From: a virus
Virus record (IMG/VR): IMGVR_UViG_3300025082_002529
Coordinates: 1-21,921 of that record
Length of the DNA: 21,921 bases
Strand: one strand, 5' to 3'
Shown here: positions 1-19,439 of the stretch, in pieces
How the letters are laid out: every line of letters begins with the position of its first letter
Numbering within the stretch: position 1 is the stretch's first letter
Notes under the pieces: model-generated
Told to the model about the DNA's origin: nothing
Databases searched by the model: none
What the model saw: the letters and a program-made list of their open reading frames with translations, nothing else
Translations under genes and position numbers: made by a program

Positions 1-35
1 CGAAGATAAAAAAAGTAATCAGCGAGTTATACTAA
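1..35 (+). CDS. C-terminal end of an upstream gene (partial, off left edge)
   Basis: Reading from base 3, the frame codes for KIKKVISELY and stops at TAA 33-35, which overlaps the next ATG by one base (TAATG). The same TAATG junction occurs at 6133-6137 and 17903-17907, so it is a normal gene boundary in this genome. Only about ten residues are visible and no family can be assigned. Alternatively this is non-coding: the frame of the next gene is also open upstream to the window edge. Confidence 0.3.
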   Translation, partial: KIKKVISELY

Positions 36-748
36 TGATAGTTGCAATTCAGACAGCGAGAAAGGGAAGCAAGACAGTTGTTGATAAGAACATATCAGAT
101 GTCAATGGAAAGCCGCTGTTTCTTCATTCTATTGACATAGTAAATGAATCAAGACTCATTGATCATGTGTTTGTTAGCACAGATTGCCCTGTAATCAAAT
201 CATGCTCAAAAGATGGAAAATTTTGTGTGATAGACAGACCTGAGTATCTTGCAGGAGATAAAAGCTCGCATCATGAAACAATGATACACGCAATATTGGC
301 AGCAGAGATAGTACTGCGTGAAAAAATTGATCTCATCGTTTTCTTATTAGGAAACACAATTTGTGCACCGTCAGAAGATGTAGATATGTGCATACAGGAT
401 ATGATAAATAATAAAAGAATTGACTCAATACAGTCTGTTTCTAAGTTCAATATGTTCAATCCATATAGAGCCTACACAATCAGCCCATCAGGAAATTTAA
501 TAAACTTCATTGACTCTTCAAACATAGAAGCTGCAAATGATAAAAATAGCGCAGGCGATGTCTGGTTTAACAATGGATCGTTTTTTATTTGTAGAAGAGA
601 CACGGTAATATTGAAGAAAGGTTTGAGTCCTTTCCCATGGTTGGGCCATAATATCAAGCCCTTCAAAGAAGATACGAAAATGGAAGTCGATGCACAGTGG
701 CAACTTAATTGGCTAAGAAACAGTTTTATGGAAAAAAATGAAAAATAA
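35..748 (+). CDS. Divergent CMP-sugar cytidylyltransferase (NeuA-like paralogue)
   Basis: This 237-residue protein belongs to the acylneuraminate cytidylyltransferase family, which activates nonulosonic or related sugars with CTP. The nucleotide-binding N-terminus AIQTARKGSK (residues 4-13, then DKN 17-19) corresponds to the IPARGGSKG...KN motif. The C-terminal stretch near EVDAQWQLNWL resembles the acidic metal-binding segment. The family's LQPTSPLR motif is replaced by LLGNTICAPS, and the first motif is degraded too, so substrate or activity may differ from the canonical copy encoded at 2356-3006. The start at 35 puts the nucleotide-binding motif where the family has it and makes a TAATG junction; no good Shine-Dalgarno is seen, so coupling is likely. 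The frame is open to the left edge, so a longer protein cannot be excluded. Family assignment is fairly sure; function is not. Confidence 0.75.
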   Translation: MIVAIQTARKGSKTVVDKNISDVNGKPLFLHSIDIVNESRLIDHVFVSTDCPVIKSCSKDGKFCVIDRPEYLAGDKSSHHETMIHAILAAEIVLREKIDLIVFLLGNTICAPSEDVDMCIQDMINNKRIDSIQSVSKFNMFNPYRAYTISPSGNLINFIDSSNIEAANDKNSAGDVWFNNGSFFICRRDTVILKKGLSPFPWLGHNIKPFKEDTKMEVDAQWQLNWLRNSFMEKNEK

Positions 749-2339
749 AAATGAACTAAGGGTGCTATCAGAGAAGATAAACTCATTACCGAACTGGGAC
801 AGATGGAATAATTACAAGGATATCTACGACACTAGCAAGATAACAGAATCTTTTTTAGAGTCAATTCTTTTTCAGTCAGAAGAAGAAAGTGTGCTTGATT
901 TCGGTGCAGGCTTTGCTTTGAATTCGTTCTATGCTAAAAAGTCAGGCTTGAAAATAGATGCACTGGATATTGATACAGAAGAAGTTAGAAAGACATTTAA
1001 AGAAGTTCACAAGATATTAGATCTAGAAACAGATCTTTATGATGGCATCAATGTTCCGTATGAAGATGAGTCATACGATAAGATAATTTTCAAGGCATCA
1101 ATTACAAAATTTATAAGCACAAATACTTTAGATATTTTTGATGAGCTTGTAAGAATATCTAAGCCTGGTGCTACATGGTATATTGCACCTCCGTACATGT
1201 ATCCAAGATTTATAGCTGCCGTGACAAAAGCAGCCGGCAAAGCGCTACTAAGTAATTTAAGCGTAGACAGCACTATCAATTCTGTTTATGGAGAAGTTTT
1301 AAAAAAGAATATATCAATTGTAGTGTGGGACTGGACAAAAAGATCAACATTTGCAATATGGACCCGTGACGACATCGTATCTGACATAGGCTGGACTCCA
1401 ACTGCTGCGTTTGAAAGAGAATCGCTGACAACTTGTTTTAAGTATGATATACCTAGCGCGACGTCATTTGTTCCTGTTCACGGTGTACACCTGTTATATC
1501 GAGATTTATTTGATGCCATTATGTCACTCGCACCAGCTTTAGGAGTAGAGCAAGAAAAAGCGAACCAACTCGGCCACGCTTTCAAAGTATTTGTGAAAGA
1601 GAATCTTGACAAGATCAATGAAACACCTGAAGTAGCGAATACAAAAAAATTATCGATAATTCCTAACGGCCAGTGTGGCCTCTCTGTCAAAGACAATAAG
1701 ACATACATCGTTGCACGTGGTGCTTCAGCATCTCAAATACCCAACCTTGAATTAGTAGCTGCACCTGATGAGTGTGTGATATACGTGAATGACTGGAAGG
1801 AAGAGCTAACGACTTATGATTTTTCAAGATTCTCTGAAAAGAGTCTTAATATACATTTTTTAAATAGAGGCATTAGTTTAAATAAGCTTAAAACTAGGCA
1901 GTATTTTGATAAAAAGTTTAATTTACTTCAGCTAAATTGTGAATTTTCAGAACAGGACCATGCGGCCATCTCAGAACTGTATAAAGAGGCAGCAGACAAT
2001 AGCATTAATCTTGCTTGGCTGCCACATGACATAATAACTACCCCTGTTAAAACAGCTGGATTACATGCTGTATTCTATGCAGTTAAAATCTTAAAAAGAA
2101 AAGAAATTGAGATATTTGGTCTAGATTTTTTTGAGTGCAATTATATGACAAAGCATGTTGTGACGGGAAAACCTGAACCAAGAGAGTACCAGCCTGCCAA
2201 AGGAAAGATTGCTAAGGGCCAGTTTCTTGATCTAGTTAAGAGCAATCCAGGTGTTAAGTTTACAATCAATACTTTTGCAAAGTTTGATGAAAAAGAACTT
2301 AAAAATATTAAAAACTTAACAGTTAACCATTTAAAATAG
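738..2339 (+). CDS. Two-domain protein: SAM methyltransferase-like N-terminus, sialyltransferase-like C-terminus
   Basis: This is a 533-residue protein. Residues about 50-150 look like a class I SAM-dependent methyltransferase: glycine-rich motif LDFGAGFA at 53-60, acidic strand DALDID at 74-79, and SKPGATWYIAPP at 141-152. Residues about 305-530 look like a bacterial CstII/GT42-type sialyltransferase fold. The stretch YIVARGASASQI (323-334) sits where that family has its GNGPSL-type nucleotide loop. KTAGLHAVFYAVKI (438-451) and KEIEIFGLDFFE (455-466) match the family's SG...A-LGYKEIYLSGIDFY region, and a possible catalytic histidine follows at 473. The middle (150-300) is unassigned. The start overlaps the previous gene by 11 bases with GGA at 730-732 as a weak Shine-Dalgarno. 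If the call is right, this protein transfers the CMP-activated sugar made by its neighbours and may also methylate it. The methyltransferase part is fairly sure; the transferase part is inferred from motif resemblance. Confidence 0.6.
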   Translation: MKNKNELRVLSEKINSLPNWDRWNNYKDIYDTSKITESFLESILFQSEEESVLDFGAGFALNSFYAKKSGLKIDALDIDTEEVRKTFKEVHKILDLETDLYDGINVPYEDESYDKIIFKASITKFISTNTLDIFDELVRISKPGATWYIAPPYMYPRFIAAVTKAAGKALLSNLSVDSTINSVYGEVLKKNISIVVWDWTKRSTFAIWTRDDIVSDIGWTPTAAFERESLTTCFKYDIPSATSFVPVHGVHLLYRDLFDAIMSLAPALGVEQEKANQLGHAFKVFVKENLDKINETPEVANTKKLSIIPNGQCGLSVKDNKTYIVARGASASQIPNLELVAAPDECVIYVNDWKEELTTYDFSRFSEKSLNIHFLNRGISLNKLKTRQYFDKKFNLLQLNCEFSEQDHAAISELYKEAADNSINLAWLPHDIITTPVKTAGLHAVFYAVKILKRKEIEIFGLDFFECNYMTKHVVTGKPEPREYQPAKGKIAKGQFLDLVKSNPGVKFTINTFAKFDEKELKNIKNLTVNHLK

Positions 2340-2355
2340 ATAAAATAGGTGATCA

Positions 2356-3006
2356 ATGAAAATTTTTGCCGTAATACCTGCAAGAGGTGGGAGTAAGGGT
2401 GTTCTTAAGAAAAACCTTTATCCGCTTAATGGAAAGCCCTTACTACATTACAGCATCAACGCCGCGCTTTCATGCCCGCTTATTGATGCCGTATACATCT
2501 CATCAGATGATAATGAAATTCTAGACTACGCAGAAGATGAGGGTGCTCGCACAATAAAAAGACCCACGGAAATATCAACTGATACATCAACTTCTGAGTC
2601 TGCATTATTACATTTTGCTGAAAATGTAGAATTTGATCATCTGATATTCTTACAGGCAACTTCTCCTTTGATGACACCTGAGCTACTAGAGGCAGCGCTA
2701 AGTGTTTATATTAGAGGCAAGTATGATTCTGTAGTCTCTGTATTTGAAGATCATGGATTCTGGTGGTACTATGATGACCCGCTGTATAATCCGATGAATA
2801 GGCACATGAGACAGGAAAATGCAAATAAGCGATACAAAGAGTCTGGAATGTTTTACATAACTTCTAAAAAAGCACTGCTGGAATCAAAATGTCGATTTTC
2901 AGGTAAGAGTCATTCATTTGTACATTCAAGAATAGTGGGATATGATATAGATGATTTAGATGACTTTAAGATAGTCGAAGCAATTATGGAGAAATTAAAT
3001 GTTTAA
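2356..3006 (+). CDS. neuA: CMP-nonulosonate (N-acylneuraminate) cytidylyltransferase, NeuA type
   Basis: This 216-residue enzyme couples a nonulosonic acid to CMP using CTP, giving the donor for glycosyltransfer. The motifs are canonical: IPARGGSKG at 7-15, KN at 19-20, KRP at 68-70, LQATSPLM at 99-106, and an acidic metal-binding cluster DIDDLDD at 197-203, of which D197 and D199 correspond to the Mg ligands known in NeuA. AGGTGA at 2347-2352 lies just ahead of the ATG. The gene overlaps the neuB-like gene by 8 bases, so the two are almost certainly cotranslated. The substrate could be sialic, legionaminic or another nonulosonic acid (LegF/PtmB homologues share these motifs); the sequence alone does not say which. 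Confidence 0.9.
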   Translation: MKIFAVIPARGGSKGVLKKNLYPLNGKPLLHYSINAALSCPLIDAVYISSDDNEILDYAEDEGARTIKRPTEISTDTSTSESALLHFAENVEFDHLIFLQATSPLMTPELLEAALSVYIRGKYDSVVSVFEDHGFWWYYDDPLYNPMNRHMRQENANKRYKESGMFYITSKKALLESKCRFSGKSHSFVHSRIVGYDIDDLDDFKIVEAIMEKLNV

Positions 3007-3850
3007 CCCTTACGAGAATAGTGAGCTACCTTTTATCATTGCAGAAGTTGGCATCAATCACAATGGTTGTTTAACAACAGCAAAGAAATTAATTGATGTA
3101 GCAGCGCAGTCAGGTGCAAATGCTGTTAAATTTCAGAAAAGAACTGTTGATGTAGTGTACACTCAAGAGTACTTAGCAGGTCATAGGGAGAGCCCATGGG
3201 GAACTACGCAGCGCGATCAGAAAGAAGGATTAGAGTTTGGTCATTCTGAGTACAAAGAGATTGATGAGCACTGTCTTAAAGCAGGGATCATATGGACAGC
3301 GTCCGCATGGGATATTAATAGTCAGCGCTTCTTAAGAGAGTTTAATGTGCCTTTTAATAAGATAGCATCAGCAATGATAACAAATATACCCTTTCTCGAT
3401 GCAGTCGCCTCAGAAAGAAAGCATACTTTTATTTCAACTGGAATGACAGAGTATGAAGATGTTGATACTGCTGTATCAGTTTTTGAGGGCTATAATTGTC
3501 CATTTACTCTTTTCCACACAGTGTCAACTTATCCTTGCGAGCTAGAGGATTGTAACATTAGTATGGTCACTAGTCTTATTGATAAATATGAATGCCCGGT
3601 AGGCTATAGCGGCCATGAAAAGGGAATTTTGCCATCTGTGCTTGCTGTTTCTCTCGGCGCTGTTGCAATTGAGAGACATATCACACTTGACAGGACAATG
3701 TACGGTTCAGATCAGTCTGCTTCGTTAGAGCCATATGGTTTTAAGCGACTCATTAGGGACTGTAAGAATGCCAAGACTATTCTGGGTGACGGTGAAAAAA
3801 GATTTATAGATGAAGAAAGAGTTATAGCTGATAAGCTAAGATATTTTTAG
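2999..3850 (+). CDS. neuB: Nonulosonate synthase, NeuB type, lacking the SAF domain
   Basis: This protein condenses phosphoenolpyruvate with an N-acyl hexosamine (ManNAc or a di-N-acyl relative) to form a nine-carbon acid. The TIM-barrel motifs are intact: AEVGINHNG at 15-23, VKFQKR at 43-48, STGM at 146-149, YSGHEKG at 203-209, ERHITLDR at 225-232 and SLEP at 242-245. H206 and H227 are 21 residues apart, as are the two Mn-binding histidines known in meningococcal NeuB. At 283 residues it is shorter than the usual ~340-350: it stops after DKLRYF, where the family normally links to a C-terminal antifreeze-like SAF domain that closes the partner subunit's active site in the dimer. GGAG at 2988-2991 gives a 7-base spacer to the ATG. 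NeuB, LegI and PseI are all possible. Catalytic residues look present; activity without SAF is unproven. Confidence 0.88.
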   Translation: MFNPYENSELPFIIAEVGINHNGCLTTAKKLIDVAAQSGANAVKFQKRTVDVVYTQEYLAGHRESPWGTTQRDQKEGLEFGHSEYKEIDEHCLKAGIIWTASAWDINSQRFLREFNVPFNKIASAMITNIPFLDAVASERKHTFISTGMTEYEDVDTAVSVFEGYNCPFTLFHTVSTYPCELEDCNISMVTSLIDKYECPVGYSGHEKGILPSVLAVSLGAVAIERHITLDRTMYGSDQSASLEPYGFKRLIRDCKNAKTILGDGEKRFIDEERVIADKLRYF

Positions 3851-3854
3851 TAAT

Positions 3855-4625
3855 ATGAACTTATCTGTATTACAAGGTAGATTATCTTCTCCAGAAAACG
3901 GCTATCAGGAAACACCAGTTGATTGGCACAGAGAGTTTAAGCTGTTAAATGAAGTGGGCTTATCACATGTAGAGTGGGTTATCACAAAAAATCAATTTTT
4001 TAATAATCCATTTTTCACTAATGACTTAGATAAGTTTTCTATTAGCGCTGTCTGTGCAGATAATGCAGTTGATAATAATATTTTTAATAGAGATTTTTTT
4101 ATAGGAAGCATGTATCCGATTTGTGAAAAGAGCATAGCGCATGGAATTGACACAGTAACACTTCCGCTGCTGGATGAGTCAAAAGTAGATACTGATGAGA
4201 AGAAGCAAAAGATAATCAGCTTGCTTATTGAGTGCTGCAAAAGATATCCACAGCTTAGAATTAATATAGAGGCTGAGCTTGATTCGAAAAATTTACTAGA
4301 CATTATCCTGTCTCATGAGAATTTAAAAGTTACATACGATACAGGAAATTTGACAGCTATGAACTTTGATCATGAAGAGTACATAGCTGAGACCTTTAAT
4401 CACATCACTAATGTTCACTTAAAGGATAGAAAATTCAACAAAGGTGAATCTCAAATTTTATTTGAAGGAGATACTGACTTTGATGTGATTTTTAGCACAC
4501 TATCTACATTAGGATATAAAGGTTTTTTTACATTGCAAGTTGCAAGAGAGAAACCTGGAAATGAAATTGATCATATAAAAAAAATAGCAAACACATTTAG
4601 GAGGATGTATGAACAATATTTTTAG
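3855..4625 (+). CDS. Sugar isomerase/epimerase-like TIM-barrel protein (AP-endonuclease-2 superfamily)
   Basis: This 256-residue protein resembles the xylose-isomerase-like superfamily, whose members isomerise or epimerise sugars and sugar phosphates with a divalent metal. Candidate metal ligands appear in family order: E139 in INIEAE, D162 in YDTGN, H188 in NVHLKDR and a last ligand near LQVARE (E232). The EGDTDFD segment at 204-210 matches the conserved GxGxxDF loop. The N-terminal LSVLQGRLS also fits the family. It lies four bases after the neuB-like gene and overlaps the SDR gene by 17 bases. Relatives occur in bacterial nonulosonate clusters, so it may help supply or modify the sugar precursor; that role is inference. 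Confidence 0.72.
   Translation: MNLSVLQGRLSSPENGYQETPVDWHREFKLLNEVGLSHVEWVITKNQFFNNPFFTNDLDKFSISAVCADNAVDNNIFNRDFFIGSMYPICEKSIAHGIDTVTLPLLDESKVDTDEKKQKIISLLIECCKRYPQLRINIEAELDSKNLLDIILSHENLKVTYDTGNLTAMNFDHEEYIAETFNHITNVHLKDRKFNKGESQILFEGDTDFDVIFSTLSTLGYKGFFTLQVAREKPGNEIDHIKKIANTFRRMYEQYF
4599..4604 (+). promoter_or_regulatory. Strong Shine-Dalgarno inside the preceding gene
   Basis: AGGAGG is followed by a 4-base spacer and the ATG at 4609. It lies within the last codons of the isomerase-like gene and fixes the start of the SDR gene despite the 17-base overlap. Confidence 0.75.
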
Positions 4626-5427
4626 ACTTGACGGGAAGATAGCATTAATTACTGGTGCAGGAGGGCTGCTTGGACCGAAACACGCAGAAGCGATTATTGA
4701 GTTTGGTGGCAAGGTCATTTTAACTGACCACCATTTAAATAGGGTTGAAGAAAAGGCATATCAGCTTAATGAGATGTACGGCGCAGGTAGTGCCACAGCT
4801 TATCACATGGATGTAACTGATCCACGGTCTGTACGAGCAGTTGTTGATCACTGTGACAGGATTGATATTCTCATTAATAATGCAGCGAAAGATCCAAAAG
4901 TGAAGAAATCAGGGAGTTTGACACCAGAAAGCAGATTTGAAACGATGACATCAGAGTATTGGCAGGAAGGAATTGATGCGGCGCTTAATGGTACATTTTA
5001 CTGTTCGCAAGCAGTTGCAAACAAAATGATCCGCGATAATGTGAAGGGAGTAATACTCAATATCTCTTCTGATCTTGGCGTAATTGCGCCAGATCAACGA
5101 ATATACAGAAAGCCAGGAACACCTGATCATCTGCAGAATGTAAAGCCAGTGACATACTCAGCTGCAAAGTGGGCAATTGTTGGAATGACAAAATATCTTG
5201 GTGTGTACTTTGCTCAGAAGGGAATCAGAGTTAACTGCTTGAGCCCGACAGGTGTCTACAATGACCATCCTGAAGAGTTTGTTGCTAAGTTATCAAACAT
5301 TATTCCAATGGGTAGAATGGCAGACATTGATGAGTATAAAGGTGCAATAGTATTCTTGTGCTCTGATGCTAGTTCTTACATGACAGGCGAGAACATGGTC
5401 ATTGATGGTGGAAAGACAGTATGGTAG
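4609..5427 (+). CDS. Short-chain dehydrogenase/reductase in the nonulosonate cluster
   Basis: This is a classical SDR of 272 residues. It shows the cofactor-binding TGAGGLLG at 15-22 (a variant of TGxxxGxG), LINNAA at 88-93, catalytic serine at NISS 151-154, YSAAK at 183-187 with catalytic Y183 and K187, and SPTGV at 212-216. It ends in GENMVIDGGKTVW, typical of SDR C-termini. It would oxidise or reduce a sugar or sugar-nucleotide hydroxyl with NAD(P). It resembles the PtmA-like SDRs known from flagellin nonulosonate loci of Campylobacter, which suits the neighbours, but SDR substrate specificity cannot be read from sequence. It starts from a strong AGGAGG and overlaps the cupin gene by 7 bases. 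Confidence 0.82.
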   Translation: MNNIFRLDGKIALITGAGGLLGPKHAEAIIEFGGKVILTDHHLNRVEEKAYQLNEMYGAGSATAYHMDVTDPRSVRAVVDHCDRIDILINNAAKDPKVKKSGSLTPESRFETMTSEYWQEGIDAALNGTFYCSQAVANKMIRDNVKGVILNISSDLGVIAPDQRIYRKPGTPDHLQNVKPVTYSAAKWAIVGMTKYLGVYFAQKGIRVNCLSPTGVYNDHPEEFVAKLSNIIPMGRMADIDEYKGAIVFLCSDASSYMTGENMVIDGGKTVW

Positions 5428-5810
5428 AGACCGTCGCTCGATTCTTACCAAGAAAGATCAACTTGTATATGAAACATGTTGACAAGGGCTGGGGCTGGGA
5501 GCGATGGATATGCAACGGCCCAGAGTATTGTGGAAAGCTTTTATTTTTTGAAGCTGACAAAAGATGCTCTTGGCACTATCATAAGCTAAAAGATGAGGTC
5601 TTTTATTTACAATCTGGCTTAGTGATCGTGAATTATTCAGAAGATGATGATCTAGAAAATGCATCACAACAAATATTGAACCCAGGTGAAAATTTCCATG
5701 TCTATAGAGGTCTAAGACACCAGATGATAGCCCTTCAGGATTCAGAGTTGTTTGAATTTTCAACTCAGCATTTTGATGAGGATAGTCATAGAATAGTTAA
5801 GGGTGATTAG
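5421..5810 (+). CDS. Small cupin-domain protein, sugar-phosphate-isomerase-like
   Basis: This single-domain cupin of up to 129 residues has candidate metal ligands H52, H54, E59 and H100 in the order H-x-H-x(4)-E...H. KGWGWERWI at 22-30 resembles the N-terminal side of the cupin domains of mannose-6-phosphate isomerases and GDP-mannose pyrophosphorylases. Such stand-alone cupins occur in surface-polysaccharide loci and probably bind or isomerise sugar phosphates. The ATG at 5421 overlaps the SDR stop and has a GGTGG upstream; a later ATG at 5469 (MKHVDKGWGWE) would give 113 residues and starts nearer the domain. Fold is fairly sure; reaction unknown. Confidence 0.7.
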   Translation: MVETVARFLPRKINLYMKHVDKGWGWERWICNGPEYCGKLLFFEADKRCSWHYHKLKDEVFYLQSGLVIVNYSEDDDLENASQQILNPGENFHVYRGLRHQMIALQDSELFEFSTQHFDEDSHRIVKGD

Positions 5811-5814
5811 TTTT

Positions 5815-6135
5815 ATGAAAAAAATATACTGTTTTGACATTGATGGTACAATTTGTACAATCACAGACGGTACGTATGAAGATGCTACACCCCATAAGGG
5901 AAGAATTGCAATGATCAATAGGCTTTACAATGAAGGACACATAATAAAGTATTTTACTGCAAGAGGGTCTACGACAGGGATAGATTGGTCTAAAGTTACA
6001 GAAAGCCAGCTGTCAGACTGGGGTGCTAAGCATCATGAGCTTCACTTCGGTAAACCACATTACGACATGTATATTGGTGATAAAGCGCTAAGTGATAAAG
6101 TATTTTTTGGAACGACAATATTTGAGGAATTTTAA
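5815..6135 (+). CDS. Small HAD-family phosphatase-like protein
   Basis: This 106-residue protein has HAD motif I FDIDGT (residues 7-12; D8 nucleophile, D10 acid/base), a motif II-like YFTARGS, and a lysine/acidic pair in GKPHYDMYIGDKA. It has no cap domain, like the small capless HAD proteins found in capsule and LPS loci. It may remove a phosphate from a sugar intermediate, possibly in this same pathway, but the substrate is unknown. I chose ATG 5815, after the cupin stop and 11 bases past AAGGG (5799-5803), over a GTG at 5803 that would add four residues and overlap the cupin gene. Confidence 0.75.
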   Translation: MKKIYCFDIDGTICTITDGTYEDATPHKGRIAMINRLYNEGHIIKYFTARGSTTGIDWSKVTESQLSDWGAKHHELHFGKPHYDMYIGDKALSDKVFFGTTIFEEF

Positions 6136-6989
6136 TGAGCATTCCAACAATAGGAATAGTCGGCCAGGGCTTTGTAGGCTCAGCAATACGAGTAGGCCTT
6201 GAGAATTTTTATGAAATTCTAACGTATGATTTAGACGAGACAAAGTGTAACTCAACACATGAAGATGTGTGCTTGAAAAGTGATATAGTTTTTATTTGTC
6301 TTCCTACGCCTATGCGCACATCAGGTGAATGTGACACCCGGATACTTGAACGTGCAATTAATAAAATAGAGAGTGTATGTTTTAAGTCGTATGAAACAAA
6401 TAATCCAATACTTGTTATAAAATCAACAATTCCTCCAGGCACAACTGAAAGAATAAATAAAAATTGTAAGTTATCTGTTTGTTTCAGCCCAGAATTTTTA
6501 ACAGAAGCAAATTCTTTTGATGACTTTAAAAATCAGACGAGAATTATTATAGGTGGGCCCCGTCCAGAAACAGGAAAAGTAAAGCAGATGTTTAGACGTG
6601 CATTTCCTGAGATTCCGATAATTAAGACAGGATCAAATACTGCAGAGACTGTTAAGTATTTTATTAATTGTTTCTTGGCTACAAAAGTTATATTTGCAAA
6701 TGAAATGTATGATATATGCTCTGCTGCAGGAATTGACTTTGATAAAGTTACAGAGTACGCATTATATGACAAGAGAATTGGGAGTAGCCACTTGATGGTA
6801 CCAGGCCCAGATGGTGATAGGGGATTTGGTGGCCACTGTTTTCCAAAGGACATGGAAGCCTTGATCTACTTTGCCAAGCAGATGTCTATAGATCCAAAAC
6901 TTTTAAAAAATGTATTGGATAAAAATGATTCATTGAGAAAAAATAGAGACTGGGAAGTAATGAAAGGCCGGGCAGTAAGTGACGACTAG
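6135..6989 (+). CDS. UDP-glucose/UDP-ManNAc dehydrogenase family, lacking the C-terminal domain
   Basis: This family oxidises a UDP-hexose C6 alcohol to a uronic acid with two NAD+. The Rossmann motif is at 7-15 (GIVGQGFVG), with KSTIPPGTT at 96-104, SPEFLTEA at 118-125, K174 and N178 in the K...N central-helix motif, and the active site GGHCFPKD with C235 and D239. At 284 residues the protein ends soon after the central domain and lacks the UDP-binding C-terminal third that makes typical members 390-450 residues. It is therefore naturally truncated, or the missing part is supplied elsewhere or not needed. It starts at a TAATG junction with GAGGA at 6124-6128. Candidate substrates are UDP-Glc, UDP-GlcNAc and UDP-ManNAc. 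Confidence 0.82.
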   Translation: MSIPTIGIVGQGFVGSAIRVGLENFYEILTYDLDETKCNSTHEDVCLKSDIVFICLPTPMRTSGECDTRILERAINKIESVCFKSYETNNPILVIKSTIPPGTTERINKNCKLSVCFSPEFLTEANSFDDFKNQTRIIIGGPRPETGKVKQMFRRAFPEIPIIKTGSNTAETVKYFINCFLATKVIFANEMYDICSAAGIDFDKVTEYALYDKRIGSSHLMVPGPDGDRGFGGHCFPKDMEALIYFAKQMSIDPKLLKNVLDKNDSLRKNRDWEVMKGRAVSDD

Positions 6990-7881
6990 TTTAGTGACAG
7001 GAGGCTGTGGTTTTATAGGAGGGCATATTGTTGATAGGTTAGTTTCCCTCGGCCACCACGTCACTGTTATAGATGATTTGTCTGCACCAGAAAATGAAGA
7101 TTTTTACTTCAATAAAGATAAATCAAGTGTAGCGTACGTGATCAAAGATGTGTCAGAAGATGATTGTAATGAGTATTTTTCTGGTGTTGACTATGTTTTT
7201 CATCTGGCGGCAAGAAGTCGAATCCAACCGACCATAGACGATCCAGAGCAGTGTTTTAGGGTGAACGTTCTAGGCACACAGAGGGTCCTGGAGTGGTCCA
7301 GGATGTCCGGTGTGAAGAAACTTGTATATTCAGGTACGTCATCATTGTATGGTAAACAGAATCCAATTCCGTTCACTCCAAACATGCCCGCGCACTGTCT
7401 TAATCCGTACTCGATGTCAAAGTGGATGGGTGAGCAAGTTTGTGAGCTATACTTTCAACTGTACGGATTGCACAGTATTGTCTTGCGATATTTTAATGTT
7501 TACGGCCCTAGGGAACCGCTAAAAGGCCAGTACGCACCGGTGATCGGACTTTTTAAACGCCAAGAGGCAAATGAAGAGCCGATAACACTTGTTGGAAACG
7601 GTCTTCAAAGAAGAGACTTTACGTACATTGATGATGTTGTCGATGCAAATATGTGTGCAATAGGCGCAGATGGAATTAAACACGGTGTTTATAATGTGGG
7701 AACAGGAAGAAATTATCCGATAATTGAGATTGCACACATGATAAAAAGAAAAAGTTCAATTGTTCACATCCCATCCAGACCAGCCGAGGTCAGAGAGACG
7801 CTAGCAGATATTGAATCTACGATAAGAGATCTTGGATGGGCACCGAAGTTTAAGTTGAGGGACACAGTAAATTCTTATTAA
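6979..7881 (+). CDS. NAD-dependent UDP-sugar epimerase/dehydratase (extended SDR), GTG start
   Basis: This is a 300-residue extended SDR of the GalE/WbpP type that probably epimerises or otherwise remodels a UDP-sugar, possibly the uronate from the preceding dehydrogenase. It has VTGGCGFIG at 6-14, FHLAAR at 74-79, SGTSSLYG at 118-125, catalytic Y144 and K148 in YSMSK, and LRYFNVYGPRE at 169-179. The reading frame overlaps the previous gene by 11 bases. GTG at 6979 is needed because the Rossmann motif begins only five residues in; AAAGG at 6963-6967 is a distant Shine-Dalgarno. It lacks the pattern I would expect for UDP-xylose synthase, so a 4-epimerase is more likely. It ends the first polycistronic block. 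Confidence 0.83.
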   Translation: MTTSLVTGGCGFIGGHIVDRLVSLGHHVTVIDDLSAPENEDFYFNKDKSSVAYVIKDVSEDDCNEYFSGVDYVFHLAARSRIQPTIDDPEQCFRVNVLGTQRVLEWSRMSGVKKLVYSGTSSLYGKQNPIPFTPNMPAHCLNPYSMSKWMGEQVCELYFQLYGLHSIVLRYFNVYGPREPLKGQYAPVIGLFKRQEANEEPITLVGNGLQRRDFTYIDDVVDANMCAIGADGIKHGVYNVGTGRNYPIIEIAHMIKRKSSIVHIPSRPAEVRETLADIESTIRDLGWAPKFKLRDTVNSY

Positions 7882-7922: not shown

Positions 7923-8768
7923 ATGGAAGATAATAAAGTTACTGCAACATTTCCAACAGGAAAGTCACACATCTCTTTCTCTGAATTAAAGATATGGAAG
8001 GAGTGCACGTATAGACACAAGCTTGCTTATATTGACAAGCTTGATGTATTTGAGCCTTCACCGTACTTAGACTTTGGGACTGCAGTTCATGAAGGCTGCG
8101 AGTCTCTCTTGACGACAAAGTCTGTTGACAAGGAGAAGATACTTTCAGAAGTTAGAAGTGCTTGGGATAAAAATGGGTTTGGTAAGCCAGAGTGGTATGA
8201 AAAAATGCCAGGTTGGTATAAGCATGAGCCCGTTGATGTCTGGTGCACTTGGGCATTAAACATGTGGGATGAAGTACCACAGTTCTTAGATAAAACATTC
8301 CCTGGCTGGGAGTGCTTTAAAGCTGAGGAAGCATTATACGAACCAATTGAGGAAAAGGATCTGACATTCAAGGGGTTTGTTGACGCCATTATAAAGGTAC
8401 CTAAGAAACGAGGCACAGGTTTCAACTATTGGATAATTGATTGGAAGACTTCACAATCATACGGATGGAGAAGACAAAAGAAACAGGATATCTTGATGAC
8501 AGCGCAATTGATTCTCTACAAGTACTTTTGGTCAAAAAAGCATGACATATCACTAAGTGACATACGCTGTGGCTTCATTCTTTTAAAGCGCGGAGGAAAA
8601 CCAGGAAAGATATGCGAGCTGGTTGATGTATCAGTCGGACCTAAGTCTCTAGCAAAAGGGATAAAGATAATGAACGACATGATCTCTGCAGTGCGAAGAG
8701 GAATCGCGCTAAAGAATAGAAATAGCTGCACATATTGTCCTTTTTATGGCACAGAACACTGCACGTAG
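7923..8768 (+). CDS. Cas4/AddB-like PD-(D/E)XK nuclease with putative Fe-S cluster
   Basis: This 281-residue RecB-family nuclease is likely a DNA exonuclease. GTAVHEG (52-58) holds the motif I histidine H56, FKGFVDAI (149-156) holds D154, IIDWKTS (171-177) holds the D173-x-K175 pair, and QLILYKY (195-201) is the QxxxY motif. One cysteine near the N-terminus (C28, in WKEC) and three near the C-terminus (C269, C272, C280) are placed as in Cas4, AddB and related proteins, where they bind a 4Fe-4S cluster. GAGGA at 7912-7916 gives a 6-base spacer. It stands alone between sugar genes with its own spacers on both sides. No cas1, cas2 or repeat array is visible, so a role in phage recombination, replication or host-DNA breakdown is more likely than CRISPR adaptation. 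Confidence 0.85.
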   Translation: MEDNKVTATFPTGKSHISFSELKIWKECTYRHKLAYIDKLDVFEPSPYLDFGTAVHEGCESLLTTKSVDKEKILSEVRSAWDKNGFGKPEWYEKMPGWYKHEPVDVWCTWALNMWDEVPQFLDKTFPGWECFKAEEALYEPIEEKDLTFKGFVDAIIKVPKKRGTGFNYWIIDWKTSQSYGWRRQKKQDILMTAQLILYKYFWSKKHDISLSDIRCGFILLKRGGKPGKICELVDVSVGPKSLAKGIKIMNDMISAVRRGIALKNRNSCTYCPFYGTEHCT

Positions 8769-8826: not shown

Positions 8827-10086
8827 ATGACTGAAAATGGGAAGCTTAAAGTTTTGGTTTTGTCTGATCACGCGTTATCAACAAGCGGCGTTGGAACGCA
8901 AACTAGACACTTAATTAATGGTCTTTTGGAAAAAAACAAGTGGTCATTCAGACAGTTTGGCGCTGCACTAAAGCATAATGACTACAAGACAATTGTTGTT
9001 AATGAAGACTTTATTATTAAACCAATTGATGGGTTTGGATCACCTGAAGTTATACGTGTGGCTCTCGCGACAGAAAAACCAGACATTATGTTCATTTTCA
9101 CAGATCCAAGATTTTTTACGTGGCTTTTTGATATAGAGGATGAGATACATCAAATATGTCCAATTGTCTGGTGGCATGTTTGGGACAACTATCCATATCC
9201 CGAATTCAATAATTCCTATTATGATGCTACGGATAAGATTAACTGTCATTCACACATGACATACAAGATGATCAAAGAGAACGGTAGGCATGCTGACAAG
9301 ACATCTTTTATACCTCATTCGATTCCAAATGAATTGTTTCATAAACTTTCAGACGAGGATATTGAAAAACACAAGAAGAATCTATTTGGTGACAGGAATG
9401 ATAAGTTTACAGGAATATGGGTTAATAGAAATGCAAAAAGAAAGAGACCAAATGATGTTCTTGAGTCGTGGAAATTATTTCTAGATAAGTTAGAAGAGGA
9501 CGAAGGCCACCGCTCTGCTAAGCTGATAATGCACACAGATCCGTTGGACGGTGAAGGCCCGAACTTATTCGTAGTGTGTGAGATGCTGGGTATTGTTGAT
9601 AACGTTTTCTTTTCAAGAGACAGACTTGACTTTGAAAAAATGAATGTTCTGTATAATGTTTCTGACTTTTGCATAAATATTTCATATGCAGAGGGCTTCG
9701 GATTGTCAACACTTGAGTCGATGATGACCGGAACACCGATAATCGCTGCTAAAACAGGTGGTTTGACCAGACAGGTAACAGATCACAGGGATCAAACAGA
9801 AAATGGTGTTGCATTGGATATTGATACTACCGTGATGGTGGGTAGTCAAACAGTCCCTTACATCTATGAGGATTATGTCTCTAATGAGAACACTGCGAAA
9901 GCTATAAGATCGCTGTACGACGAAATTCAAGACGAAACCAGAAAAAGAATTTTGAGTGAAAAAGTTTTAAGTTACGCGACGACAGAGTTTAATTATCAGA
10001 AAACTATTGATTTGTGGCACGAAAGTATGTTGGATGCTATCGAAAAATTTAAAGATAGAGAGAGCTGGTCTAAGAAGACGTTTTAA
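8827..10086 (+). CDS. GT4-type glycosyltransferase
   Basis: This 419-residue GT-B glycosyltransferase would move a sugar from a nucleotide donor to a glycan, lipid or protein. The N-terminal domain begins KVLVLSDHALSTSGVGTQ, with the glycine-rich loop after strand 1. The C-terminal domain contains YAEGFGLSTLE, with E289 and E297 forming the EX7E donor-binding motif, then TGTPIIAAKTGG. No signal peptide or membrane segment is evident, so it should be cytoplasmic. AAGGGG at 8811-8816 is 10 bases from the ATG. It lies two genes after the UDP-sugar pathway and is followed nearly without gap by a second GT4, so the pair may act in sequence. Acceptor and donor are unknown. Confidence 0.85.
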   Translation: MTENGKLKVLVLSDHALSTSGVGTQTRHLINGLLEKNKWSFRQFGAALKHNDYKTIVVNEDFIIKPIDGFGSPEVIRVALATEKPDIMFIFTDPRFFTWLFDIEDEIHQICPIVWWHVWDNYPYPEFNNSYYDATDKINCHSHMTYKMIKENGRHADKTSFIPHSIPNELFHKLSDEDIEKHKKNLFGDRNDKFTGIWVNRNAKRKRPNDVLESWKLFLDKLEEDEGHRSAKLIMHTDPLDGEGPNLFVVCEMLGIVDNVFFSRDRLDFEKMNVLYNVSDFCINISYAEGFGLSTLESMMTGTPIIAAKTGGLTRQVTDHRDQTENGVALDIDTTVMVGSQTVPYIYEDYVSNENTAKAIRSLYDEIQDETRKRILSEKVLSYATTEFNYQKTIDLWHESMLDAIEKFKDRESWSKKTF

Positions 10087-10094
10087 GGTTGAAT

Positions 10095-11270
10095 ATGAAA
10101 GTTTTATTAAGAGCACCGCTACTAACTAACAGCGGATATGGTGTACACTCTCGACAAATATTCGAGTGGCTAGTCGGTAGAAATGATGTTGACTTGCACA
10201 CAGAGTGTTTGATGTGGGGACACTGTTCGTGGCTGATCAATACAGACTTACACGGAGGTTTAATAGGGCAGATAATGCATCACTCCCGTCCAATAGAGAA
10301 AGGTCAAAATTTCGATGTGTCTTTTCAGGTGCAGCTTCCAAACGAGTGGGATCCAAATTTAGCTAAAAAAAATATTGGTGTATCTGCATTTGTTGAAACA
10401 GATCGTTGTAATCCTGAGTGGATCAATCACTGTAATAAAATGAGCAGAGTCATAGTTCCGTCGACATTTACAAAAAACGTCGCTGTAAGGTCTGGGAAGC
10501 TGTCAACACAAATTGATGTTGTTCCTGAGTGGTATAATCACAGTATTATTAAAAAGTCAGCATGTGATAAAATAGCTAAATCTGATAAAAGATATAAGTT
10601 CAACACGAGATTTAATATCATGATAATGGGTCTGCTAACAAGCATGAATACAAATGATGATAGAAAAAATTTAGTTAACACAATTAAATGGATAATTGAG
10701 ACGTTTAGCGGCAATAAAGATGTTGGAATTGTCCTTAAGACAGGCTTAGGCCGGGATACTGTACAGGACAAATTGATATGCGAGGCCAACATAAGAAAGA
10801 TAGTTGACGAGTTCAGAAAATCAAGCTTATTTCCCAAGATTCACTTTTTGCATGGACATATGCAACCCAATGAACTAGGTGCACTTTATACTTCATCAGG
10901 TATAAAAGTTTTTGCATCTGCAACTAGAGGAGAGGGATACGGTCTGCCAATAATTGATGCGGCAGCAGCAGGAATTCCAATTATAGCAACAGGCTGGTCT
11001 GGACATTTTGAGTTTTTAGATCGTGACTTAGTGAGTTGTGTAGACTACAAGCTTAATGAGATAGCAAAATCAAGAGTTGACAATTCAATATTTTTAGATG
11101 GGTTCCGGTGGGCAGAACCTGATAGAGATAGTTTTTGCAATGCACTAACTGACATTTATGAAAACTATAAAATTGCAAAGGGCAAAGCAAATAAATTGAA
11201 GAAAAAAATAGTACCAGGCTTCCATAAAGAGAACATTAAGAAGTTATATGATAAAATTCTGGATGAGTAG
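10095..11270 (+). CDS. Second GT4-type glycosyltransferase
   Basis: This protein has about 391 residues. The N-terminus KVLLRAPLLTNSGYGVHS gives the first Rossmann strand and glycine loop. SRVIVPSTFTKN matches the hinge region of GT4 enzymes, and the C-terminal donor site reads RGEGYGLPIID with E280 but D288 in place of the second glutamate, then AAGIPIIATGWSG. The EX7E motif is thus EX7D, which is found in some members. I chose ATG 10095, 6 bases past AAGG (10085-10088), over a TTG at 10089. It is distinct in sequence from the preceding GT4, so this is not a recent duplication. Donor and acceptor unknown. Confidence 0.82.
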   Translation: MKVLLRAPLLTNSGYGVHSRQIFEWLVGRNDVDLHTECLMWGHCSWLINTDLHGGLIGQIMHHSRPIEKGQNFDVSFQVQLPNEWDPNLAKKNIGVSAFVETDRCNPEWINHCNKMSRVIVPSTFTKNVAVRSGKLSTQIDVVPEWYNHSIIKKSACDKIAKSDKRYKFNTRFNIMIMGLLTSMNTNDDRKNLVNTIKWIIETFSGNKDVGIVLKTGLGRDTVQDKLICEANIRKIVDEFRKSSLFPKIHFLHGHMQPNELGALYTSSGIKVFASATRGEGYGLPIIDAAAAGIPIIATGWSGHFEFLDRDLVSCVDYKLNEIAKSRVDNSIFLDGFRWAEPDRDSFCNALTDIYENYKIAKGKANKLKKKIVPGFHKENIKKLYDKILDE

Positions 11271-14472: not shown

Positions 14473-15474
14473 ATGGGAGCATTAAAAGATGTAGGTGCAA
14501 TTGGTGATGAGGCTGAGGATTCTTATGACCAGTTCAGGGCTGCTACACAGCAGACGCTGATAGACGGATATGCTTACGTAATTCCAGGTGTCGAAGATTC
14601 AGCAGTGCCCATACCTCTGCATGAGGATGCAGGAGGCCTCCCAGAGTCAGTCAGGCTTGGAGCTGCTGGCATACTGACCACACACTACGATGACTTCGAT
14701 GCTATGTGGGGAGACATGTACTTCAAAACAATGGAAGCTATTGATGATAACTTCCCGTCGGCAGGCATGCCACCTGTTACTCCGCTTATCGATCCAACAG
14801 TGCCACTTATTCCTATACTCACATTGGATCTAGGTATCCCGGACCTCCCTGAGTGGCTTCTTAAGCACCTCCCTCCGCTAATGATTAATCCAACCTGGCC
14901 ACCTGATTTTTTGGCTGCAGTGACTAAGGCATTGGCTTGTGAGCCAAAAGATCTTGCAAATATGTTAGTTGATATGGACAAAGACGGCGTCGTAGAGGCA
15001 GATAGAGTTATTGAGGCATTTGAAGCAATCTGTCCGATTACGATACCCACGATTACTATTCCTCCCATTCCGCCCCCGCCATTCCCGTGGGCATTCAACT
15101 TTGCTCCTGTTCCATCGATAGGCTTCCTCATTCCAAACTGGGAGTGGCCGAATCTTAATTTTTCGTTTTCATTGCTCTTAGAAATTGTTATAAAAGCAGG
15201 AATTAAATTTGGAGCAGCGATACCAGAGCTTATCTTAAAGATAGTCAACGGGATCGAAGAATTTCTTATTGCTTGTGTAATGTTTTTGATAGAAACTATT
15301 ATCGCTATGATCATGGAGGTCATGGCATTTTTATTGAAGATGGTCACATATGTAGCAGGTCTTATGACATTTCTTGCAAAAATAATTCCCGGTATGATAG
15401 TCGCAATTCTCGGTTGGGCCTTAGGAACCGGCATGATAGCTTACATAGCCGCTGGCTACTTTGATTTAATCTAA
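14473..15474 (+). CDS. Proline-rich baseplate-locus protein with hydrophobic C-terminus
   Basis: This 333-residue protein is not recognised. Residues about 105-215 are rich in Pro and Ile (for example PTITIPPIPPPPFPWAF near 191-207), and from about 230 to the end is nearly continuous hydrophobic sequence able to form three or four membrane helices (MFLIETIIAMIMEVMAFLLK; LAKIIPGMIVAILGWALGTG). Between them DMDKDGVVEADR (about 168-179) resembles a Ca-binding EF-hand loop (DxDxDG) without the usual final glutamate. AGGAG at 14462-14466 precedes the ATG. Flanked by hub and wedge genes, it is probably a virion protein, perhaps membrane-active during DNA entry or a tail-tip component. That is inference; an inner-membrane phage protein is the alternative. 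Confidence 0.6.
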   Translation: MGALKDVGAIGDEAEDSYDQFRAATQQTLIDGYAYVIPGVEDSAVPIPLHEDAGGLPESVRLGAAGILTTHYDDFDAMWGDMYFKTMEAIDDNFPSAGMPPVTPLIDPTVPLIPILTLDLGIPDLPEWLLKHLPPLMINPTWPPDFLAAVTKALACEPKDLANMLVDMDKDGVVEADRVIEAFEAICPITIPTITIPPIPPPPFPWAFNFAPVPSIGFLIPNWEWPNLNFSFSLLLEIVIKAGIKFGAAIPELILKIVNGIEEFLIACVMFLIETIIAMIMEVMAFLLKMVTYVAGLMTFLAKIIPGMIVAILGWALGTGMIAYIAAGYFDLI

Positions 15475-15532: not shown

Positions 15533-16054
15533 ATGAGTGATGCAACAAATGCAACAGTCTCGAAGTTTAGCTTTAAGAGCGTGGGCAACGTCGTTACTGC
15601 TAGAAAGTTTGATAATACTTCTACTATAGCATCGTTAGAAAGAAGTATCGGTATTATTACACCTATCAGGCAGAGTGGTAAGGGTGAAATATTTGACATG
15701 CACACAGACGTCAGAGAGCAGTTAAAGGATAATTTAAAGAATCTCATCATGACTAACCAGGGTGAACGACTATGTCGTCATGCTTTCGGTGCAAACTTAA
15801 AAAGTGTGCTTTACGATTACACAAAAGAGAAGGAGTATATAAATTTAGTCTCAGGATTGATAAGGCAGGCAACTGAGCAATCTATGCCTGCGCTTGATAT
15901 CACAGAGGTTGAGGTGCTTGTTTTGAATAATCTTGAGAAGAATAATGCAAACTTAGCAGGCTTGGCAAAATTAAAGTTAAGAGTAATTTTTTCTGTGCCG
16001 AGTATTCGTATAGAAAATTTAGGCGTTGAAGTTGAAATGTTTATCGGAGGATAA
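15533..16054 (+). CDS. 25: Baseplate wedge subunit, gp25-like (GpW/gp25 family)
   Basis: This 173-residue protein has the gp25/GpW signature: REQLKDNLKNLIMTNQGERLCRHAFGANLKSVLYD (about 62-96), in which the helix, the TNxGER turn and the following FG..L...L pattern are conserved across contractile tails and related injection systems. The protein sits in the baseplate at the wedge-sheath boundary in T4. Residues 1-50 are a longer N-terminal extension than in T4 gp25 (132 residues). GGAGA at 15518-15522 is 10 bases from the ATG. It follows the only spacer above about 20 bases in the structural block, and gp6 follows at once, as in other T4-like phages. Its presence marks a contractile tail. Confidence 0.9.
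   Translation: MSDATNATVSKFSFKSVGNVVTARKFDNTSTIASLERSIGIITPIRQSGKGEIFDMHTDVREQLKDNLKNLIMTNQGERLCRHAFGANLKSVLYDYTKEKEYINLVSGLIRQATEQSMPALDITEVEVLVLNNLEKNNANLAGLAKLKLRVIFSVPSIRIENLGVEVEMFIGG
16046..16050 (+). promoter_or_regulatory. Shine-Dalgarno deciding a TTG start
   Basis: GGAGG lies 10 bases before TTG 16061, at the very end of the gp25-like gene. It supports TTG as the gp6 start; no ATG is available near that point in the frame. Confidence 0.6.
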
Positions 16055-16060
16055 TTTAAA

Positions 16061-17905
16061 TTGGCAAGAAATATTAAAAAAGAAGTAGCAAAGCACAAGG
16101 ATATATCGTATACAAATCGTGACTTTGACAGTATTAGGAATGAGCTAAAAAGATACACAGCTACACACTTTAATCAAAATATTGTTGATATAAGTGATGC
16201 ATCGTTAGCGGGCCTTCTAATTGACCTTGCTGCGTATGTGGGTGATGTGATGTCGTACTACATAGACCATCAGTTTAATGAGACATCAATTGAGACAGCA
16301 ATTGAGACTGAGAATATTGAGAGGTTCATTAGAGAGGCCGGCGTTGAAGTAGCTGGTCCGTCACCTGCACTTTGTGAGGTGACATTCAGAATTAGAGTTC
16401 CTGCAACGCTTAATAATGGTGAGTACTCTCCGAATAGTGTGTATCTACCTGTAATTAAATCAGGGTCAGTTGTCTCGTCAACAACAGGTGTTGACTTTGA
16501 GTTACTTGATGATGTTGACTTTTCAGAAACTGACGCAGATGATGAGCTAGTTGCAACATTCAGGATTGGCCAGCTATCCGGATCAACACCTCTTAACTTT
16601 ATTTTAGAAGCGACAGGTGTGTGCACAAGTGCAAAGTCAAAGACAGATTCATTTCCAATAGGCGATACTGTTGAACCGTTTAGAAAAATTACATTGACAA
16701 AGACCGATGTCACAGAGCTAGTGTCTGTCTACGATAACGATGGCGACAATTACTATGAGGTGAGTTCTCTGACCCAGGATACTGTTTTCAAACGTCATGC
16801 GAATAGTAGACAAGATGCAGAGTACGCTCCCGAGCGCCTGCAGATTCTTCATGCGCCGAAGCGATTTGTCAAATTTAGAACATCAACAACAGGAAAGACA
16901 ACGATAAGATTCGGCTCCGGTGATGAGACAAAGTTCGATGAAGACATAATCCCAGATCCTTCAGATCACGCAGTCACGCTTTACGGTGATAGGGAGACAT
17001 CAACAAAGATCACGATTGATCCTAACAGTTTCCTGGAGACACAGACATTAGGCATCTCTCCTAGAAATACAACAATAACAGTGAACTACAGATATGGTGG
17101 AGGTCTAAAGCATAATGTGGGAGCTGGTTTACTAAATTCTGTAAAGACGTTGATCACGTCTTTTGGAACAGCAACACCAACATCCGTCGCATCATCAATC
17201 AGAGCGTCGACAACTGTGATCAATCAACAGCCAGCAGCAGGCGGAGAGGATGAGCCAACGCTAGAAGAGTTAAGAAATATCGCGCTGTTCAATAGAAACT
17301 CACAGAACAGGGTCGTCACTAGAGAGGATCTCATAGCAAGAGTGTACGGAATGCCAACTAACTTTGGAAGAGTATTCAGAGTGTCTGTAAGAGATAATCC
17401 AAATAATCCACAAGCTGCACAACTTCACATAATTTCTAGAAATTCTAATGGAAAATTAATACTGTCGCCTGACACTCTAAAGGAAAACTTAGGCTTCTAT
17501 TTGAGCCAGTTTAGAATAGTATCTGATGCGATAGACGTTCTCGATGCAGCTATAATTAATATAGGAATAAACTATTCAGTCACAGTTGATGCAGATAGGA
17601 ATTCGAATACAGTTTTGAATATCATTAATGCTAAATTAGGAAAATACTTTAATATAAAAAATTGGCAGATTGATCAGCCTGTTATCACCGGCGAGCTTGA
17701 AAATATCGTGCTAAATACTGCCGGCGTAGTTTCAATTGTGGAGTTTTCAATAGTTGGTAAGTCAGGAGTAATTGATGACTTGGTTTATACTGATGTCTCA
17801 TATGATCCAAGAAGATACATGGATAGAGGGTATCTATTTCCACCACGAGGTGGAATGATAGAGCTCAAGTATCCTAATGACGACATTGTCGGGAGTGTTA
17901 CATAA
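16061..17905 (+). CDS. 6: Baseplate wedge subunit, gp6-like
   Basis: This 614-residue wedge protein starts at TTG with GGAGG 10 bases upstream. The N-terminus matches the gp6/gpJ family: YTNRDFDSIRNELKRY (about 18-33), then SLAGLLIDLAAYVGDVMSYYID (about 48-69), where the LIDLxAYxxxxxxYY pattern is diagnostic. The middle holds beta-rich sequence, and a later segment EELRNIALFNRNSQNRVVTREDL (about 404-426) matches the VT.eDy motif of wedge proteins. In T4, gp6 dimers form the ring that joins wedges around the hub. The stop overlaps the next ATG by one base (TAATG). Same length class as T4 gp6 (660 residues). Confidence 0.88.
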   Translation: MARNIKKEVAKHKDISYTNRDFDSIRNELKRYTATHFNQNIVDISDASLAGLLIDLAAYVGDVMSYYIDHQFNETSIETAIETENIERFIREAGVEVAGPSPALCEVTFRIRVPATLNNGEYSPNSVYLPVIKSGSVVSSTTGVDFELLDDVDFSETDADDELVATFRIGQLSGSTPLNFILEATGVCTSAKSKTDSFPIGDTVEPFRKITLTKTDVTELVSVYDNDGDNYYEVSSLTQDTVFKRHANSRQDAEYAPERLQILHAPKRFVKFRTSTTGKTTIRFGSGDETKFDEDIIPDPSDHAVTLYGDRETSTKITIDPNSFLETQTLGISPRNTTITVNYRYGGGLKHNVGAGLLNSVKTLITSFGTATPTSVASSIRASTTVINQQPAAGGEDEPTLEELRNIALFNRNSQNRVVTREDLIARVYGMPTNFGRVFRVSVRDNPNNPQAAQLHIISRNSNGKLILSPDTLKENLGFYLSQFRIVSDAIDVLDAAIINIGINYSVTVDADRNSNTVLNIINAKLGKYFNIKNWQIDQPVITGELENIVLNTAGVVSIVEFSIVGKSGVIDDLVYTDVSYDPRRYMDRGYLFPPRGGMIELKYPNDDIVGSVT

Positions 17906-19428: not shown

Positions 19429-19439
19429 TGGTAGTTTAA

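Follow-up and report, generated by a model that had tools for sequence, protein, structure and literature searches.

Can a bacteriophage make, activate and attach a sialic-acid-like sugar of its own? The question is raised by an operon in the IMG/VR virus record IMGVR_UViG_3300025082_002529, part of a phage genome, which we analysed over its whole length of 21,921 bases (hereafter the window). An earlier note, made from the sequence alone, had described a ten-gene sugar operon at positions 35-7881 beside T4-like baseplate genes. Indeed, the open reading frame (ORF) listing gave ten ORFs there (genes A to J), all on the plus strand, with intact frames and intergenic spacing of -17 to +16 bases, and gp25 and gp6 homologues lie at 15533-17905. 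The best explanation, to which we assign a probability of about 0.45, is that a virion acceptor or another acceptor inside the cell is glycosylated by way of this island.

A NeuB-family synthase without the SAF domain

Gene D encodes a protein of 283 amino acids that consists of the barrel only; the C-terminal SAF domain, which contributes to the N-acetylmannosamine (ManNAc) site in NeuB, is missing. This absence holds throughout the subfamily, nearly all members of which have about 275-300 residues and most of which carry the motif R-E/D-S/T-P-W-G (R63, E64, P66, W67 and G68 in D). Alignment of 153 relatives showed conservation of K44, Q46, K121, S124, Y178, S204, H206, E225, H227 and D238 of D, and the counterparts of Neisseria NeuB K53, Q55, K129, S132, Y186, S213, H215, E234, H236 and D247 are almost invariant. 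The Lys, Gln, Ser, His, Glu, His and Asp at the phosphoenolpyruvate (PEP) and metal positions are kept in at least 151 of the 153 proteins. At the position of Neisseria E134, D has M126, and methionine stands there in 127 of 153 subfamily members, in contrast to glutamate or aspartate in 20 of 24 distant paralogs. E134 is the catalytic glutamate of canonical NeuB, and the roles given here to the aligned residues and to the SAF arginine are those of the Neisseria enzyme. Because the PEP and metal residues are kept while methionine occupies the E134 position, the subfamily has likely retained its PEP chemistry and changed its acceptor recognition.

The NeuB-type assignment of the earlier note thus stands (PF03102), but D is not a canonical N-acetylneuraminic acid (Neu5Ac) synthase: apart from the missing SAF domain and the methionine, it scored 241.2 bits against the N-acetylneuraminate synthase equivalog TIGR03569, whose cut-off is 399.65. 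For this reason the predicted sugar can be called sialic-acid-like only loosely, and in that sense the proposal of a virus that makes, activates and attaches it is borne by an operon with synthase, cytidine monophosphate (CMP)-activation and candidate transferase genes. The best solved relative of D is PDB 6ncs (5.5e-47), a NeuB barrel of 290 residues from Leptospira borgpetersenii. Like D it lacks the SAF domain; unlike D it has no RE(S/T)PWG motif and reads KIASCD where the window reads KIASAM.

Such synthases probably do not form Neu5Ac from ManNAc, because the SAF domain is lost, methionine replaces E134 and NeuC-type epimerases are almost absent. As the earlier note had observed for the window, PF02350 is absent from it and from its longer twin contig (G001, below), and of 50 phage records 48 are without it, the other two having one match above cut-off and one weak match.

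CMP activation and candidate transfer

Gene C fits the canonical NeuA that had been proposed. It scored 90.9 bits against PF02348 (cut-off 22.6), carries the IPARGGSKG motif, and has PpNeuA as its best solved relative; its score against the PseF equivalog was below cut-off (119.6 versus 205.7 bits). The second cytidylyltransferase, A, was recovered as a divergent PF02348 protein with TARKGSK where the canonical motif is ARGGSKG, and an ortholog with 45% identity occupies the equivalent place in the related contig L009.

The transferase is a more remote case. Profile searches, proposed earlier as a check, succeeded for NeuB (PF03102) and NeuA (PF02348) and failed for the sialyltransferase families: neither PF06002 (GT42, CST-I) nor PF00777 (GT29) matched in the window or G001, PF00777 being present in G003, G014, G016, G017 and L003. 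We also compared profiles. A four-member profile of the C-terminal domain of B (with its relatives in L009, where it is a separate ORF, L004 and L172) aligned in hhalign at 88% probability (E 3e-6) with a phage GT42-like set seeded from ORFs with PF06002 matches, most of them over the family cut-off; 20 decoy families reached at most 5.3%. With three sequences the value was 61%, and against six GT29 sequences alone it was 4.4%. A PDB sequence search with the domain profile returned noise only, and tblastn of protein B against GenBank phages gave no match. The domain is probably, though not provenly, a GT42-like transferase, and the CstII-like domain of the earlier note survives as a remote relative without a Pfam match. 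In L009 the methyltransferase and glycosyltransferase (GT)-like domains of B are separate ORFs.

Relatives of the window phage carry clearer sialyltransferase-family genes. In L021 (8512-10828) and L022 (8548-10828), contigs of 131 and 316 kb, GT29, NeuA and NeuB genes follow in succession; GT29 overlaps NeuA, NeuB overlaps or lies within 12 bases, and GT29 occupies the slot held by B in the window, so that the trio reads as a minimal transfer-activation-synthesis cassette. A GT29 gene abuts NeuB in L018; in L010, a near relative, the two are 6 kb apart. In the 484-kb uncultured phage LR756508.1 (L003), GT29-family genes at 19277-19909 and 22008-22691 (1.6e-26 and 7.9e-32) flank NeuB. Within a second phage NeuB clade, a GT42-like gene directly follows NeuB in many contigs (L055:10004-11556, L063:9989-11547, L068, L069, L073, L076 and others). 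Conversely, L172, retrieved by the GT profile alone without use of NeuB, has NeuB, PtmA-like short-chain dehydrogenase/reductase (SDR) and haloacid dehalogenase (HAD) genes beside its GT gene. Such bona fide GT29 or GT42-like genes beside NeuB support a complete synthesis-activation-transfer module. The GT29-NeuB-GT29 stretch of L003 also adjoins GDP-mannose-dehydratase/fucose-synthase-like genes.

The island has a fixed place in a phage lineage

The twin contig IMGVR_UViG_3300006926_002033 (L002/G001, 31,298 bases) is collinear with all 21,921 window bases and differs by 20 single-nucleotide polymorphisms. A search with the window gp6 found gp6 in 23 of 37 NeuB-bearing contigs, and in all 22 where placement was possible NeuB precedes gp6 by 11.9-31.7 kb on the same strand, which makes the position of the island a fixed trait of a phage lineage. 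A chimeric assembly of a bacterial surface locus with a phage, the objection raised in the earlier note, has nothing but the mixed gene content in its favour and is hardly credible: the independent collinear contig and the same arrangement in 21 other contigs rule it out. The junction between sugar and baseplate genes is genuine.

As in phage islands of the lipopolysaccharide (LPS) type, a sugar-modifying and GT cluster lies in a T4-like phage genome, gp6 and gp25 share its contig, and 22 relatives of the same layout have gp6. By gp6 and the GT4 gene L, the named relatives are Flavobacterium phage immuto, Microcystis phage Mel-JY01, Rhodothermus phage RM378 (GT4 only) and the jumbo phage LR756508. 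The trio K, L and M is kept in many NeuB phages, and a core of this type also occurs in immuto and Mel-JY01.

As a separate observation, 17 of the 20 differences from the twin cluster in 141 bases (14520-14660) within a predicted baseplate-region gene (14473-15474), which suggests local recombination or diversification.

Distribution and evolution of the synthase

Single-sequence IMG/VR scans with protein B and NeuB returned the twin contig only; profiles were required for other relatives. One profile scan placed relatives of D in at least 360 viral contigs. The 80 top cellular loci belong to SAR11, SAR86, Prochlorococcus, Caulobacter, Omnitrophota, Lachnospiraceae and others, and 3 of 50,697 GenBank phage records, one labelled Moritella viscosa, contain NeuB relatives of the window kind. 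The synthesis module is thus not limited to the window phage. In Marine virus AG-345-L05 (L004:17358-23661), a psbA-encoding, single-cell-derived cyanophage of the Kyanoviridae, SDR, KdsB-like, aminotransferase, SAF-less NeuB, HAD, GT-like and epimerase genes stand consecutively.

In the phylogeny, which had also been suggested earlier, the window NeuB falls inside an all-virus clade of eight, and a second virus-only clade comprises 35 sequences (support 96). Virus and cell labels switch at least 8 times on supported branches, far below chance, indicating that NeuB was acquired repeatedly and then retained within phage lineages. Both NeuB types occur in one phage in L011, L012 and L014, among others.

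These data bear on the idea that the island consists of functionless host-derived genes, filler DNA for headful packaging. The possibility has been raised for cyanophage LPS clusters (PMC3037559), and the repeated virus/cell switches would suit it. We nevertheless consider it very unlikely, as the ten frames are unbroken, the catalytic residues are invariant across the deep virus-only clades of 8 and 35, sub-modules are conserved and the island position is fixed.

Precursor supply

Which sugar might the synthase accept? The legionaminic acid pathway is not matched: J scored 121 bits versus 475 for LegB, and no aminotransferase (LegC) was found in the window or among the upstream genes. PtmA genes are part of legionaminic acid clusters (PMC4481668), and F is PtmA-like, with orthologs of 75-79% identity in other NeuB phages.

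Gene fusions point to other enzymes. NeuB is fused to a PF01261 TIM barrel in phages (L073:13293-15191, L080:12216-14057) and in Prochlorococcus (L100:6960-8855), with SAF included in L073 and L100, and a NeuB-SAF-cupin fusion occurs in a phage (L063:12236-13696). The partners are the domain types of E (TIM barrel) and G (cupin). Among the best 80 cellular loci, an E-type gene occurs in 35 and a SIS gene in 31, and PtmA-like SDRs of the F type or L4 type are also paired with NeuB. The G-type cupin is phage-restricted among NeuB loci (20 of 80 viral, 0 of 80 cellular), with orthologs of 66-81% identity in other phages; H orthologs lie near 30 of 80 viral NeuB genes. From the fusions and the cellular co-occurrence, E, G, F and the SIS enzymes are the best candidates for supplying the acceptor sugar, by reactions that we infer only in outline. 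Of the partner genes named earlier, isomerase, SDR, dehydrogenase and epimerase were recognised by Pfam, and cupin and HAD matched weakly, under cut-offs.

The operon itself is longer than had been described: the genes at 35-7881 are present as stated, but the true start lies upstream of the window, where L002/G001 adds five sugar genes. These encode a 2-hydroxyacid dehydrogenase, an IolG-like Gfo/Idh dehydrogenase, a GmhA-like SIS isomerase, an SDR and an AroB-related putative sugar phosphate phospholyase (TIGR04425, 8e-96, L002:3186-4289), whose product may be a cyclitol or another sugar.

With this cyclase in the same operon as the IolG-like dehydrogenase, SIS isomerase and 2-hydroxyacid dehydrogenase, the island might instead yield a soluble sugar-derived metabolite or cyclitol, the AroB-like cyclase being the key enzyme and NeuB/NeuA supplying one building block; secondary-metabolite-like clusters have been proposed for jumbo cyanophages (PMC7824862). 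Yet an AroB-like gene accompanies NeuB at just one viral locus of 80 and one cellular locus of 80, hence lies outside the conserved module, and GT genes are frequent NeuB partners. We regard this alternative as improbable.

Table 1 Annotated genes of the window, with the matches on which each assignment rests
Feature	Positions	Strand	Evidence
A: divergent cytidylyltransferase, candidate second CMP-sugar synthetase	35..748	+	PF02348 8.9e-11; PDB CMP-NeuNAc synthetase 6ifd 6e-9
B: S-adenosylmethionine methyltransferase (N-terminal) fused to GT42/GT29-like candidate transferase domain (C-terminal, about 1644-2339)	738..2339	+	PF13649/PF08241 about 2e-6
C: NeuA-type CMP-nonulosonate synthetase, IPARGGSKG motif	2356..3006	+	PF02348 1.3e-25; PpNeuA 9t4z 1.9e-34
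D: SAF-less NeuB-family PEP-condensing synthase, RESPWG subfamily	2999..3850	+	PF03102 5.5e-68; residue conservation; tree
E: xylose-isomerase-like TIM barrel sugar isomerase/epimerase	3855..4625	+	PF01261 2.9e-11
F: SDR, PtmA-like, nearest model NF006619 (PRK09186)	4609..5427	+	1.7e-47, 162 bits; cut-off 255
G: cupin	5421..5810	+	PF07883 5e-5, 23.4 bits, under cut-off 27.2
H: small HAD-type phosphatase candidate	5815..6135	+	EcbF-BcbF 0.0021, 18 bits vs cut-off 162; alternative GTG start 5803
I: short UDP-glucose/GDP-mannose dehydrogenase-type protein, 284 amino acids	6135..6989	+	PF03721 + PF00984 only; without C-terminal UDP-binding domain
J: NAD-dependent sugar epimerase/dehydratase	6979..7881	+	PF01370 1.2e-57
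K: PD-(D/E)XK nuclease, island-flanking lineage marker	7923..8768	+	PF12705 1.2e-19
L: GT4-type glycosyltransferase, lineage marker	8827..10086	+	PF00534 3.8e-11
M: second GT4-type glycosyltransferase, lineage marker	10089..11270	+	PF20706 3.5e-7
gp25-like baseplate wedge gene	15533-16054	+	PF04965 7.7e-5, under cut-off
gp6-like baseplate wedge gene	16061-17905	+	phrog_6 2.4e-15; immuto gp6 32% over 99%

Gene I scored 199 bits against TIGR03026, covering model positions 69-298 of 413, and in other phages its orthologs adjoin the nuclease gene. A tail-region protein of 1,287 residues (window 19440-21921; full gene G001:23694-27557) belongs to the same gene run; it has a Laminin_G_3/ConA-like lectin domain and could bind glycans. 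Searches of the window for Rfam RNAs and tRNAs found none, and a search for the T4 late promoter motif gave a single chance-level match on the wrong strand.

The acceptor

In the best explanation, the setting is a late-region glycan island in an uncultured T4-like myophage lineage. There, E, G, further isomerases, dehydrogenases and phosphatases would turn a sugar of the host into an aldose acceptor, which D would condense with PEP to a 3-deoxy-2-ulosonic acid other than classical Neu5Ac. C, perhaps with A, would charge this acid with CMP, and the GT42-like domain of B would transfer the activated sugar; the fused methyltransferase may O-methylate the sugar or the glycan. The acceptor would most likely be reached in the cytoplasm, as a virion tail or baseplate protein or as a glycan begun by the GT4 enzymes L and M.

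An intracellular acceptor is favoured because no flippase or enzyme that loads a lipid carrier was found and because the island lies in the structural-gene region. Neither PF01943 (Wzx flippase) nor, above cut-off, PF02397 (initiating transferase) occurs in any of 50 NeuB phage records, many of which are fragments; PF01943 is present in 31 of 50 cellular genomes with window-type NeuB, but these greatly exceed the phage records in size. Maf-type transferases are believed to place nonulosonates on flagellin, Maf4 being a putative legionaminic acid transferase (PMC9298399), and a protein route is therefore chemically plausible.

Alternatively, the phage CMP-ulosonate could be placed on host LPS or capsule by a host flippase and ligase, masking receptors from superinfecting phages. 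Hypervariable polysaccharide islands are known from P-SSM2, S-SSM7 and S-SM2, for which superinfection exclusion has been proposed (PMC7824862, PMC3037559). Island content likewise differs among close relatives of the window phage, and the cellular relatives of its NeuB sit in surface-polysaccharide-like loci. However, the missing flippase and initiating transferase speak against such remodelling of the envelope, as does the place just ahead of the baseplate genes, which suggests late expression, when masking would be least useful. We judge it somewhat unlikely. For decoration of DNA, a further use suggested in the earlier note, the analysis gave no supporting evidence, no test having been aimed at it.

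Glycosylation of an intracellular acceptor has its own difficulties. A host flippase could be used, which is compatible with the missing phage flippase. Pfam returns no match for the C-terminal domain of B, and the structural models are mixed: foldseek with a low-confidence model of the domain (pLDDT, a model confidence score, 55) gave the ST8SiaIII sialyltransferase as the only PDB hits with E<1e-3, and the model of the L009 ortholog (pLDDT 69) gave unspecific PDB hits with no sialyltransferases and, in BFVD, phage proteins without a name; predicted structure is thus no proof by itself. These points weigh against the favoured explanation. The sequences show the gene content, the linkage, the kept catalytic residues of the synthase and its co-occurrence with sialyltransferase-family genes; substrate, product, acceptor, late expression and the benefit to the phage are inferred.

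In its most specific form, intracellular glycosylation would mean that a widespread aquatic myophage lineage makes an uncharacterised 3-deoxy-ulosonic acid of its own with a SAF-less NeuB, activates it with CMP and, in the cytoplasm of the host, has it put on proteins of its own virions by interchangeable GT42-like or GT29 transferases; we offer this tentatively.

Comparison with known systems

Sialic-acid-like sugars serve as a currency in surface recognition. Should phages produce and attach sugars of this kind themselves, the chemistry of the coat or the host surface would be virus-encoded and cassette-swappable, with consequences for adsorption, superinfection and phage immunity. We found no assigned product for the SAF-less NeuB subfamily of SAR11, SAR86, Prochlorococcus, gut bacteria and phages, and the phage modules with fused partners offer a small, experimentally tractable way of finding its substrate. 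Polysaccharide islands of phages are known, their function being unproven (PMC3037559). We found no account in the open-access literature of a phage module joining a NeuB-family synthase, a CMP-synthetase and a sialyltransferase-family transferase; the nonulosonate-type form of such islands appears undescribed.

Bacterial NeuB/LegI/PseI and NeuA/LegF pathways, including that for Campylobacter legionaminic acid, share with the window the combination of PF03102, PF02348 and a PtmA-like SDR. In contrast to them, the window has no SAF domain, methionine at the E134 position, and neither NeuC nor LegC; in their place it has TIM-barrel and cupin isomerases. The C-terminal domain of B shares remote profile similarity and GPS-like and GxD motifs with GT42 (Cst) and Maf/MptE-like transferases, but it is fused to a methyltransferase and lacks a direct Pfam match.

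The LPS/capsular islands of the cyanophages P-SSM2, S-SSM7 and S-SM2 are, like that of the window, variable epimerase, cupin, GT and sugar islands in T4-like phages, and NeuB, NeuA and sialyltransferase-family genes go unmentioned in the sections of their descriptions that were consulted (PMC3037559, PMC7824862). None of the three was matched by the window NeuB in the GenBank phage search. Unlike them, the window island adjoins PD-(D/E)XK, GT4, GT4 and baseplate genes. Although the islands of immuto and Mel-JY01 hold different sugar genes, without NeuB or NeuA, downstream of the GT pair, these two phages share with the window phage the PD-(D/E)XK-GT-GT core, an adjacent sugar island and a related gp6.

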